Positions 2,529 through 5,056 of a stretch of DNA of 37,293 bases are shown piece after piece. A model generated the notes under the pieces. It did not search any database and was not told the DNA's origin. It saw only the letters and a list, made by a program, of their open reading frames with translations. Source of the DNA: Candidatus Omnitrophota bacterium (GTDB lineage Bacteria > Omnitrophota > Gorgyraeia > Gorgyraeales > Gorgyraeaceae). The stretch covers positions 1 to 37,293 of the forward strand of contig JAHIYJ010000041.1 in assembly GCA_018814825.1 (NCBI GenBank), written 5' to 3'. The translations under genes were made by a program, and so were the position numbers. How positions within the stretch are numbered: position 1 is the stretch's first letter; every line of letters starts with the position of its first letter.

Positions 2529-2789
2529 CGGGGAGGTCGTGGAACGGCCTGAGAGTTCCGCTGAGACCCCATTCCAAATTCTAATCGGTAATCTAGTTAT
2601 TGTTTGTAACTAATTGCTGACAATTCTTGTAGGTTATTTGGTAATAATTAAGAATTTGGAACGGGGCAAGGCGGATTACCCGAAAAACCTGATGCCGAAT
2701 GAAGAGATTAAGATAAGCTATTCTTCGGCATCCCGAAGCATAACTAAATAAGTTACTGCATTTGGGACTGGATAATGCCAGCGTAGGGA
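2529..2789 (+). promoter_or_regulatory. TPP (THI-element) riboswitch with two large insertions
   Basis: All conserved pieces of a thiamin-pyrophosphate aptamer are present in order. P2 5' strand is CGGGG (2529-2533). P3 is a 7-bp hairpin, 2539-2545 with 2555-2561. J3-2 is TGAGA (2562-2566). P2 3' strand is ACCCG (2678-2682). J2-4 is ACCTGAT (2687-2693). P5 is CTGG-ATAATG-CCAG (2768-2781), followed by CGTAGGGA (2782-2789). A normal aptamer is about 100 nt; this one spans 261 nt because of about 100 nt between J3-2 and P2' (long stem 2567-2582 with 2651-2666) and 74 nt between ACCTGAT and P5 (hairpin 2691-2699 with 2724-2732, second hairpin 2738-2745 with 2751-2759). It sits upstream of thiM, as expected. 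Confidence 0.85.
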
Positions 2790-2807
2790 GAATAACTTAG
2801 AGATTGT

Positions 2808-2837
2808 CCCTGCGCCGTGGCGCAGGGATTTTTATTT
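2808..2837 (+). terminator. Riboswitch-controlled intrinsic terminator
   Basis: CCCTGCGC (2808-2815) pairs perfectly with GCGCAGGG (2820-2827), followed by ATTTTTATTTT. The 5' arm region TCCCTGCGC (2807-2815) can instead pair over nine positions with GCGTAGGGA (2781-2789), the 3' strand of the aptamer core. This gives a classic OFF switch: with TPP bound the core strand is held in the aptamer and the terminator forms; without TPP the antiterminator forms. Confidence 0.85.
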
Positions 2838-2851
2838 TAGGAGGTATCGCG

Positions 2852-3637
2852 ATGGATATATATGGTATTTTAGAAAAGGTAAGGACTGAAAAACCCCTGG
2901 TGCACCATTTGACGAACTGGGTCACTATTTATGATTGTGCTAATATAGTAAAGGTGTTGGGCGCTTCTCCTGTCATGGCGCATGCCAGGGAAGAATCCGG
3001 TGACATGGCGAGCCTTGCCTCCAGCCTTGTACTGAATATAGGAACGCTTACGCCAGAATTTATCGAATCAATGAAGATCGCGGCTAGAGCGGCAAATAAA
3101 AAAGGCATACCTATAGTCCTTGATGTGTGTGGTGCCGGAGCGACTAAATTAAGAGATGAAAAATCATTTGAGCTGTTAGATCAGGTAAAGATTGATGTGA
3201 TAAAGGGTAATACTTCTGAGATAGCCAGGATATCAGGTGAGAATGTACAGACAAAAGGCGTTGATTCAGTTGAGGTAGAAAAGAATCTGATAGAGCTTGC
3301 CGAGCATCTGGCAGAACAAAGAAATTCTATAGTGGTTATTACGGGAAAAGAAGACATTGTAGCTGATAAGACTAGGCATTTCATTGTGAAGAATGGACAC
3401 GAGATGATGGCACATGTTGTGGGAACAGGCTGTATGGCCGCGTCAATCATAGGCGCGTTCAGCGCTGTGCATAAGGACTTGGCTGAGGCGGCGGCCGGCG
3501 CTCTTTCCGTCTACGGTATAGCGGCGGAACTTGCGGCAAGTGAATCCAGAGGCCCGGCTACATTCAAGGAAAAACTTTTTGATAATATCTACAGACTCGA
3601 CAGGGAAACCATAGAGAAGTTGCAAAGGATAGGATGA
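2852..3637 (+). CDS. thiM: Hydroxyethylthiazole kinase
   Basis: ThiM phosphorylates 4-methyl-5-(2-hydroxyethyl)thiazole for thiamin salvage. The 261-aa protein has the N-terminal PLVHHLTNWVT segment (about 15-25), the ribokinase-like VLDVCGAGATK (about 89-99), GNTSEI (119-124) and the GTGC anion-hole motif (191-194). The start is the ATG at 2852, preceded by AGGAGG (2839-2844); an in-frame TTG at 2804 lies inside the terminator and is unlikely. It is the first gene after the TPP riboswitch and overlaps thiE by ATGA. Confidence 0.92.
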   Translation: MDIYGILEKVRTEKPLVHHLTNWVTIYDCANIVKVLGASPVMAHAREESGDMASLASSLVLNIGTLTPEFIESMKIAARAANKKGIPIVLDVCGAGATKLRDEKSFELLDQVKIDVIKGNTSEIARISGENVQTKGVDSVEVEKNLIELAEHLAEQRNSIVVITGKEDIVADKTRHFIVKNGHEMMAHVVGTGCMAASIIGAFSAVHKDLAEAAAGALSVYGIAAELAASESRGPATFKEKLFDNIYRLDRETIEKLQRIG

Positions 3638-4242
3638 TAAAAGGCTATTATTTTATAACTGATGCTGAACTAAGCAAGAATGGCAACGTGAGTGATGTAA
3701 AAAACGCTATAGAGGCCGGAGTGAGTGTTGTCCAGTATAGAAGTAAGTTTGATGACACAGACCATATGTTAGAGGAGGCACGCTTACTTAGAGAGATATG
3801 TAAAGGCAAGGCGATTTTTATTATAAATGACAGGGTTGGGATAGCCATATCAGTGGACGCTGACGGCGTGCATCTTGGCCAGGGAGATATGCCGTATGAG
3901 ACTGCGCGGGCACTCATGGGAAAAGATAAGATAATAGGCGTGACAGTGCATGACCTGAAAGAGGCCATAATAGTGGAGAAAAAAGGCGCTGATTATCTTG
4001 GGGTGAGCCCTGTATTTTCAACCACTACCAAGAAAGATGCAGGAATGCCTTGCGGGGTTGAGCTCATAAGAGAGATAAGGAAAAAATGCAGTATACCTAT
4101 TACAGCCATAGGAGGCATTATCCTGGACAATGCAAGGGAGGTGATGGAAGCAGGCGCAGACGCCATATGCGCTATTTCTGCCGTAGTGACAAGGGATGAT
4201 GTAAAGGAAGAGATACAGAAGTTTCAAAAATTATTTAATTAA
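3634..4242 (+). CDS. thiE: Thiamine-phosphate synthase
   Basis: ThiE joins the thiazole phosphate and HMP pyrophosphate to give thiamin phosphate. The 202-aa TIM-barrel protein carries VVQYRSK (32-38), the IINDRVGIA substrate loop, DGVHLGQGDMP (about 77-87), the phosphate-binding GVSPVFSTTTK segment, and AIGGI near the C-terminus. The start overlaps the thiM stop (ATGA), so the two are coupled. Same riboswitch-controlled operon. Confidence 0.93.
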   Translation: MIKGYYFITDAELSKNGNVSDVKNAIEAGVSVVQYRSKFDDTDHMLEEARLLREICKGKAIFIINDRVGIAISVDADGVHLGQGDMPYETARALMGKDKIIGVTVHDLKEAIIVEKKGADYLGVSPVFSTTTKKDAGMPCGVELIREIRKKCSIPITAIGGIILDNAREVMEAGADAICAISAVVTRDDVKEEIQKFQKLFN

Positions 4243-4273: not shown

Positions 4274-5056
4274 ATGTTTCAGCATGTAACAGATGCAAAG
4301 ATTACAAAGGCGATCCTGAAGGAGTTTACCTCGTGGTTTGAAGAGTATATTGTTTCAGATGTAATAATAGTGGGAGGAGGCCCGAGCGGACTAGTGGCGG
4401 CGAGGGAACTGGCGAAAGACGGATTGAAAACCCTGGTTATCGAAGCGAATAACTATCTGGGCGGAGGTTTTTGGATAGGTGGATATTTAATGAATACGCT
4501 TACCTTCAGGGGCCCGGCTCAAGAAGTATTAGATGAACTGAGCATTCCTTATAAAGAGGCTGAGCAGGGCCTTTTCACGGCTGACGGGCCGAGCGCCTGT
4601 TCAAAGCTTATTTCAGCGGCGTGCGACGCGGGAGTAAAGATATTAAACATGACAAAGTTTGATGACGTAGTGCTTAGAAACGACAAAGTAGAAGGGGTTG
4701 TCATAAACTGGACACCTGTTTCAGCTTTGCCGAGACAGATTACGTGCGTGGATCCTGTTTCCCTGGAATCAAAAGTTGTGATAGACGCGACCGGGCATGA
4801 TGCACATGTATGTAAAAGCCTGGAAAAAAGAGGTATTATAAAACTTAAAGGTTTCGGACCGATGGACGCCAATAGCTCGGAGGATTTGGTTGTGGAAAAG
4901 ACAGGCGAAATTTTTCCGGGCCTGTTCGTGACTGGCATGGCTGTTTCAACCGCCTATGGTATCCCGCGCATGGGCCCGACATTTGGTGGGATGCTCTTTT
5001 CAGGTAAAAAAGCCGCTAAACTCACGAAAGACAGGCTTCTGACCTGCCGAGTCTGA
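4274..5056 (+). CDS. thi4: Thi4-family thiazole synthase, Cys type
   Basis: Makes the thiamin thiazole moiety from NAD, glycine and a sulfur source. The 260-aa protein has the FAD/NAD dinucleotide motif GGGPSG (34-39), the GGGFWIGG loop (about 63-70) and the C-terminal IPRMGPTFGGMLFSG (about 230-244) typical of Thi4/ThiI-like enzymes. Cys158 in QITCVDP aligns with the sulfur-donor Cys of yeast THI4 (which precedes MDPN), whereas sulfide-using archaeal enzymes such as the Methanocaldococcus protein have His there. This suggests a single-turnover, self-sacrificing enzyme, an inference from one aligned position. Its ATG follows GGGAGG; third gene of the thi operon. No thiC, thiD or thiG is in the window. 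Confidence 0.85.
   Translation: MFQHVTDAKITKAILKEFTSWFEEYIVSDVIIVGGGPSGLVAARELAKDGLKTLVIEANNYLGGGFWIGGYLMNTLTFRGPAQEVLDELSIPYKEAEQGLFTADGPSACSKLISAACDAGVKILNMTKFDDVVLRNDKVEGVVINWTPVSALPRQITCVDPVSLESKVVIDATGHDAHVCKSLEKRGIIKLKGFGPMDANSSEDLVVEKTGEIFPGLFVTGMAVSTAYGIPRMGPTFGGMLFSGKKAAKLTKDRLLTCRV

Follow-up and report, generated by a model that had tools for sequence, protein, structure and literature searches.

The window, that is, the whole stretch of 37,293 nucleotides analysed here, derives from a MAG of a Candidatus Omnitrophota bacterium (G000; 1.30 Mb, 92% complete). The genes around the leader under study follow the order fur, feoA/B, leader, thiM, thiE and thi4, and the leader itself (positions 2529–2828), which precedes thiM, holds a complete TPP (THI-box) aptamer that is interrupted twice, together with a matching terminator/antiterminator. 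The features are as follows:

2485–2513, +: probable promoter TTGACA ... TTTAAT, 5′ of the leader (direct reading)
2529–2532, +: P2 5′ strand CGGG, with its partner CCCG at 2679–2682 (orthologs; unconstrained MFE)
2535–2549, +: P3 hairpin, GGUC (2535–2538) and GGCC (2546–2549) (conserved, with compensatory variants in orthologs)
2551–2555, +: UGAGA, T-loop of J3-2 (pyrimidine pocket), which aligns with the Rfam CUGAGA in orthologs
2557–2675, +: optional stem P3a, UCCGC (2557–2561) and GCGGA (2671–2675), with insert 1 in its loop (orthologs)
2567–2666, +: insert 1, a dispersed MITE of ~100 bp with 16-bp terminal inverted repeats CCCCRTTCCAAATTCT ... AGAATTTGGAACGGGG (repeat matches; aligned copies; same site in G003)
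2679–2682, +: P2 3′ strand CCCG (orthologs; fold)
2687–2692, +: ACCUGA, with the P4 5′ strand CCU (2688–2690) and the equivalents of G60 (2691) and A61 (2692) (orthologs; residue roles from PMC3764141)
2693–2766, +: insert 2, a REPIN-like double hairpin in J4/5, hairpin 1 at 2692–2731 and hairpin 2 at 2732–2766 (empty sites; dispersed repeats; fold with P4 and P5 enforced)
2768–2781, +: P5 hairpin CUGG-AUAAUG-CCAG with L5 (orthologs; fold)
2781–2789, +: GCGUAGGGA, comprising J5/4 (C77, G78), the P4 3′ strand and the antiterminator arm (nine-position pairing with 2807–2815; free MFE)
2807–2833, +: intrinsic terminator UCCCUGCGC-CGUG-GCGCAGGGA followed by UUUUU (direct reading; forms with the aptamer enforced)
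2853–3637, +: thiM, hydroxyethylthiazole kinase (ORF; Pfam HK family PF02110, E 6.7e-79)
3634–4242 and 4274–5056, +: thiE and then thi4, 3′ of thiM (ORFs; Pfam)

Comparison of the window with orthologous leaders placed all THI-box strands (P2 GGG/CCC, P3, UGAGA, ACCUGA and GCGNAGGGA) in order, in line with the first-pass annotation, which had recognized an interrupted TPP riboswitch at this location, followed by a terminator and thiM. The uninserted leaders of close relatives are ordinary TPP riboswitches (61–65 bits with the Rfam TPP model), and the window aligns with such leaders on both sides of each insert. This alignment of thiM leaders bounded both inserts and set the register of the aptamer, namely P2 CGGG/CCCG, P3 GGUC/GGCC, UGAGAG, P3a UCCGC/GCGGA, ACCCG, ACCUGA, P5 CUGG-AUAAUG-CCAG and GCGUAGGGA; upstream, most of the orthologous leaders share a TTGACAG ... 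TTTAAT pattern in the alignment. The leader region is much more stably folded than its shuffled counterparts (z = -8.0), and P2, P3 and P3a, the latter with insert 1 in its loop, are already present in the unconstrained MFE. In addition, helices P2 to P5 are mutually compatible, as indicated by a free energy of -115.0 kcal/mol for the enforced aptamer with the terminator versus -117.3 kcal/mol for the free fold.

Two other placements of the aptamer were rejected. A register based on the second UGAGA, beside the insert, and on P3 as GUGGAAC/GUUCCGC is not conserved, G003 having GGUCGUGAGCGGCC instead. Likewise, the covariance model located no complete standard aptamer elsewhere in the leader, its sole TPP match (2714–2806, 15.9 bits) being misplaced and restricted to the 3′ half, without P2 and P3.

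The two inserts, with the lengths originally proposed (~100 nt and 74 nt), are real, since orthologous leaders lack one or both. The 16-position stem described for insert 1 (2567–2582 with 2651–2666) was likewise confirmed, its single mismatch being an A•C. Both inserts had been assigned to the conserved core of the aptamer, a view that holds for insert 2, in J4/5, but not for insert 1, in the loop of P3a. This optional stem, found in 552 of 907 TPP riboswitches, is the variable site of the TPP class (PMC2258182), and insert 1 is therefore outside the core; in orthologs the same stem closes a loop of 3–9 nt (e.g., UUCCGC-UGUA-GCGGAU in G001).

When the leader was searched against 60 genomes, insert 1 (leader positions 39–139) matched on its own at dozens of places, with eight matches in G000, this locus included, and many in G001, G003, G005 and G006. 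Alignment of 33 copies defined an element of ~100 bp with the ends CCCCGTTCCAAATTCT/AGAATTTGGAACGGGG, several copies of which are flanked by 4-bp direct repeats (CGTG, CTCG, CAAG, TACA, TAAA, CCCG, CACG). Insert 1 is a MITE: it has terminal inverted repeats and many copies devoid of a coding region, and its family shows target-site duplications at several copies. In its length, 16-bp terminal inverted repeats, copy number and 4-bp direct repeats it resembles the prokaryotic MITEs reviewed in PMC10969869, from which the riboswitch copy differs by the absence of a clear target duplication (GAGA/CAAG). Because insert 1 occupies the corresponding position in G003, a member of another genus (164 nt at 90% identity), the insertion appears to predate the split of the G000 and G003 lineages or to have moved between them, with the core left intact.

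Elsewhere in G000 (L341, contig C70), three copies of this MITE stand in tandem beside a tRNA-Pro gene; the genome has two Y1 transposases, one of which lies ~3 kb away. Mobilization of insert 1 by this enzyme was considered but seems less likely, since target repeats of 4 bp are indicative of a transposase of a different kind. A further copy lies ~1.1 kb from a Y1 gene in G003 (contig C28), and two copies in G006 (L029, L037) share the same flanks with the MITE in opposite orientations, as if located inside a larger palindromic repeat.

Insert 2 is absent from G003, G001, G004 and G006, where CCTGA directly adjoins ACTGG, and is thus without counterpart in the closest ortholog. The site before P5 had been correctly identified; the empty site of G003 indicates that the bounds are better given as 2693–2766 than as 2694–2767. 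Insert 2 lies within the core, after U59-G60-A61 and before P5, 2 nt past the conserved G60. This residue, together with C77 and G78, contacts metal and pyrophosphate, and A61 and U62 are not among the highly conserved residues (PMC3764141).

Insert 2 is composed of an inverted pair of hairpins, the arms A and D of which are also partly complementary. It matches repeats at other loci in three further genomes of the same class (72–77%; G052, G021, G019) and, partially, in a fourth (G038). No second copy was found in the 92%-complete MAG G000, and evidence for its mobility is therefore provided by the other genomes. For a related arm motif, CGAAGC...GCGAAGNNGGA, 46 copies were counted in G300, 15 in G046, 10 in G005 and 8 in G007, compared with 0–1 occurrences of the reversed control (1 in the G300 comparison). 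As an inverted pair of imperfect, hairpin-forming palindromes belonging to a family dispersed in genomes, insert 2 resembles REPINs, the REP doublets forming hairpins (PMC3116915), and most of the genomes checked here likewise contain Y1/RAYT-type transposases. It departs from REPINs in that the J4/5 insert is single-copy in G000, as it also is in G071, and in that such elements have landed repeatedly at one site within a riboswitch core. We call insert 2 REPIN-like, and do not file it as a member, because it is not multicopy in its own host genome. Y1 transposases are the type of enzyme that moves REP/REPIN elements, and genes for them were detected in 13 of the 17 genomes checked, including the two in G000. 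Overall, both inserts match dispersed repeats, insert 1 in its own genome and in relatives and insert 2 in other genomes, which bears out the suggestion, one of several made at first, that small self-structured mobile hairpins had entered the riboswitch.

The orthologous leaders of G007 and G055 contain unrelated inserts at the very nucleotide occupied by insert 2. A census with fixed anchors (AACCTG, gap, TGGNTAATGCCNGCG) was conducted on 384 Omnitrophota genomes of the class; it relies on exact patterns and thus samples only some of the TPP riboswitches rather than all of them. The normal 3-nt gap was observed at 55 places (a few of these switches being incompletely parsed in P2/P3), and no other gap of 0–30 nt occurred. 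Inserted riboswitches fell into gaps of 31–59 nt (n = 8), 60–90 nt (n = 8) and 91–121 nt (n = 4), after exclusion of one match in the shortest class, in which a UGAGA was misread as J4/5, and, in the longest, of two matches without TPP context and one duplicate row. In total, 20 switches with an insert of 38–97 nt at exactly this site stand against 55 normal ones, so that unrelated hairpin pairs occupy J4/5 in roughly one in four of the switches sampled from relatives. This repeated invasion of J4/5 across Omnitrophota is the more unusual fact, and one that was invisible to a reader of the window alone.

For further analyses, the 20 census cases were combined with L099 and L156 from named genomes to give a set of 22 inserted switches. 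Every readable gene 3′ of these is a thiamine gene (thi4 15, thiM 2, thiG/thiS 3, thiE 1, unreadable 1), and the J4/5 inserts of G000 and G007, which are the two that precede thiM, are not related to each other. The inserts are unlike in sequence between genomes, and a homologous insert has been common to G071 and G114 after speciation. Moreover, on the Thi4 trees the inserted/uninserted label changes at least eight times in one subfamily (five changes forced by well-supported branches) and at least three times in the other (two forced), and the insert is patchily distributed even among near-identical Thi4 proteins. As judged from these trees, many independent gains or losses of J4/5 inserts are required, and J4/5 is a recurrent landing site for double hairpins in Omnitrophota.

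That the inserts might be assembly artefacts of metagenome bins deserves mention, most of the genomes used here being MAGs; however, J4/5 also carries an insert in Candidatus Velamenicoccus archaeovorus (L097/G071), whose genome is complete and in a single contig, as well as in many assemblies that are independent of each other, and insert 1 is common to G000 and G003, and we give this explanation the least credence of all.

Among the 118 stretches listed from a collection of 84,980 species, inserted TPP riboswitches were confined to Omnitrophota when P2/J3-2 was required, 52 of the listed stretches being normal TPP riboswitches with a chance AACCTG upstream and the remaining non-Omnitrophota matches being due to chance. 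J4/5 inserts in other phyla, absent from the matches listed under this requirement, are therefore likely to be rare. P3 is constant in the census riboswitches (11–18 nt), and a P3a of at least 60 nt was found in G000 and G003 only. In a further TPP riboswitch (L334; G164:C24), the parser missed mobile-looking hairpins at other positions, of which two lie within the P3a region and a third in J2/4.

The Rfam TPP model (RF00059) at its gathering threshold reported nothing in the window and nothing in the whole genome G000; a score over this cut-off, which the window as it stands does not reach, is a criterion of detection and not of definition. Applied with its own cut-off to further loci, the model found none of 20 inserted riboswitches versus 19 of 20 uninserted ones, and the failure is thus attributable to the inserts. 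Apart from the 74-nt double hairpin in J4/5, the MITE in the P3a loop and this failure of the model, the window element corresponds to the TPP riboswitch/THI element in P2, P3, P3a, P4, P5, UGAGA, ACCUGA, GCGUAGGGA, its thiamine genes and its terminator platform. Since every inserted switch tested is missed by the current model, thiamine-gene regulation in Omnitrophota is under-annotated.

With regard to switching, GCGUAGGGA is complementary to the terminator arm UCCCUGCGC (2807–2815) at nine of nine positions in the window, and relatives have CCCUUAUGC or CCCUAUGY as terminator arm. The free fold corresponds to the antiterminator and is 2.3 kcal/mol more stable than the aptamer-plus-terminator state; the insert hairpins are kept in both. 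A mutually exclusive terminator/antiterminator operating through the P4 3′ strand, a usual though not definitional property of bacterial TPP riboswitches, is thus present. According to the model that we propose, the riboswitch would control the thiM-thiE-thi4 operon through transcription termination. In the presence of TPP, GUAGGGA would be held by P4 and the terminator would form; in its absence, GCGUAGGGA would pair with UCCCUGCGC and thiM would be read. Both inserts, the MITE in the loop of the optional P3a and the REPIN-like hairpin pair between the A61 equivalent and P5, fold on themselves and leave P2, P3, P4, P5 and the ligand-contacting bases unchanged in sequence. We infer on this basis that a TPP-controlled OFF switch is at work in the window, which agrees with the initial view that the element is very likely functional.

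Insert 2 adjoins the pyrophosphate-metal site, and affinity could be reduced or lost. In the extreme case, inserted aptamers would no longer bind TPP, the J4/5 insert having broken the pyrophosphate pocket and turned the riboswitch into a recent pseudogene. The proximity of insert 2 to G60, a metal-binding residue (at most 2 nt; PMC3764141), would fit such a scenario, and its absence from the closest ortholog implies that decay may have had little time to set in. Furthermore, one inserted switch (L167, G055) has lost the P4 3′ strand, reading UUCCGA in place of UAGGGA; its terminator arm UCGGGACGU still pairs with the changed strand, and this switch may be altered or at an early stage of decay, as may some other inserted switches. 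However, the A80-GG of P4 is retained in 21 of the 22 inserted switches (55/55 normal ones), and among inserted switches both P2 (GGGG/CCC versus GAGG/CCTC) and P3 (GGTC/GGCC, GGCTA/TAGCC, GGCTG/CAGCC) vary in a compensatory manner. The terminator arm of the window still matches its P4 strand, and G071 and G114 have a homologous insert in common after speciation. A general loss of binding is therefore unlikely in our judgement.

The first-pass annotation had also raised a second sensor or a tertiary-contact domain as the origin of the inserts, neither of which found support. Only the position beside the ligand would speak for a second sensor or an altered ligand specificity; insert sequences from different genomes show neither relationship nor a common unpaired core, every base of the TPP pocket that contacts the ligand is retained, and it is thiamine genes that are controlled, which makes this idea highly improbable.

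Taken together, these results support, with a probability of roughly 0.8, a reading in which the inserted elements are functional TPP riboswitches that tolerate mobile double hairpins in J4/5, the window switch having been invaded by two different non-autonomous repeats.

A possible extension of this reading concerns the form of the inserts. With P4 and P5 enforced, 20 of 22 J4/5 inserts fold into exactly two hairpins, and in 19 of 22 the two hairpins leave no more than four unpaired junction bases, compared with 1.1 expected from shuffled sequences; for G300 and G315, another fold is favoured over two hairpins by 3–6 kcal/mol. Such inserts convert the internal loop between P4 and P5 into a four-way junction (P4, hairpin 1, hairpin 2, P5). 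The double hairpin could accordingly be a selected module, beyond tolerated mobile DNA, that defines a four-way-junction TPP subclass and tunes folding or affinity. Use of one site throughout, the nearly invariable presence of two hairpins with essentially no linker, the lack of single-hairpin or short J4/5 inserts in the census and the similarity, with compensatory changes, of the G174, G149 and G119 inserts would all be in keeping with selection. On the other hand, an adjacent hairpin was also found in 38 of 48 dispersed elements, so that the pairing needs no structural explanation and the two-hairpin rule, which we had considered as proof of selection for a four-way junction, is weakened and cannot serve as such; the patchy presence of inserts among near-identical Thi4 proteins argues in the same direction. 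We regard selection as a tentative proposal that is rather less probable than simple tolerance. The same degree of doubt attaches to a distinct four-way-junction TPP aptamer in Omnitrophota, in which double-hairpin elements enter J4/5, beside the P5 hairpin, with some preference and a number of them have since been retained and reshaped into helices that tune folding or ligand affinity; if true, the ligand-binding junction of a riboswitch class would here be rebuilt time and again by mobile RNA hairpins.

As for the choice of site, TGG follows immediately after 11 of the 48 dispersed elements (background 1.1%), in most of these cases as the complement of the tRNA 3′ CCA, and the TPP insert precedes the CTGG of P5. 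Both the tRNA-end and the J4/5-P5 sites would be accounted for by insertion beside stem-loops; survivorship, with J4/5 as the only junction tolerating inserts, would also suffice. At L230, L231, L239, L243, L250 and L252, REP-like hairpins immediately abut the 3′ CCA of tRNA genes.

Few RNA folds have been studied as thoroughly as the TPP aptamer, whose J4/5 junction is regarded as invariant. In Omnitrophota, by comparison, J4/5 accommodates an additional 38–97 nt at a distance of two bases from a metal-binding residue, and the core appears to be preserved. Like the variable stem-loop insertions described for riboswitches (PMC2258182), the inserts are self-folding and leave the aptamer core free; unlike these, they occupy a ligand-contacting junction and not a peripheral loop. 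In the mostly open-access literature searched, we met no account of inserts in J4/5 or of REPINs inside riboswitches. The Omnitrophota switches thus amount to a naturally occurring series of insertion mutants in a ligand pocket and offer a means of measuring the entry of mobile hairpins into structured RNA.

The same kind of double-hairpin element is also contained in an RNA-like block present several times in G300 and G046 (L218, L236, L237, L240, L242, L238), with the arrangement GAACCGAGGATG, double hairpin, TTTGAGG...CCGAGTTCCGCAGGTTCCCCTTTTT; this block gave no match to Rfam at E 0.1. Two further structured RNAs were observed near TPP riboswitches. In G053, the TPP riboswitch is preceded, at a distance of ~240 nt and on the same strand, by a c-di-GMP-I-GGC riboswitch (L016, 14–109 and 345–457), and in G202 an inserted TPP riboswitch has a group I intron (71 bits; L303, 47–290, minus strand) ~1.2 kb on its upstream side.
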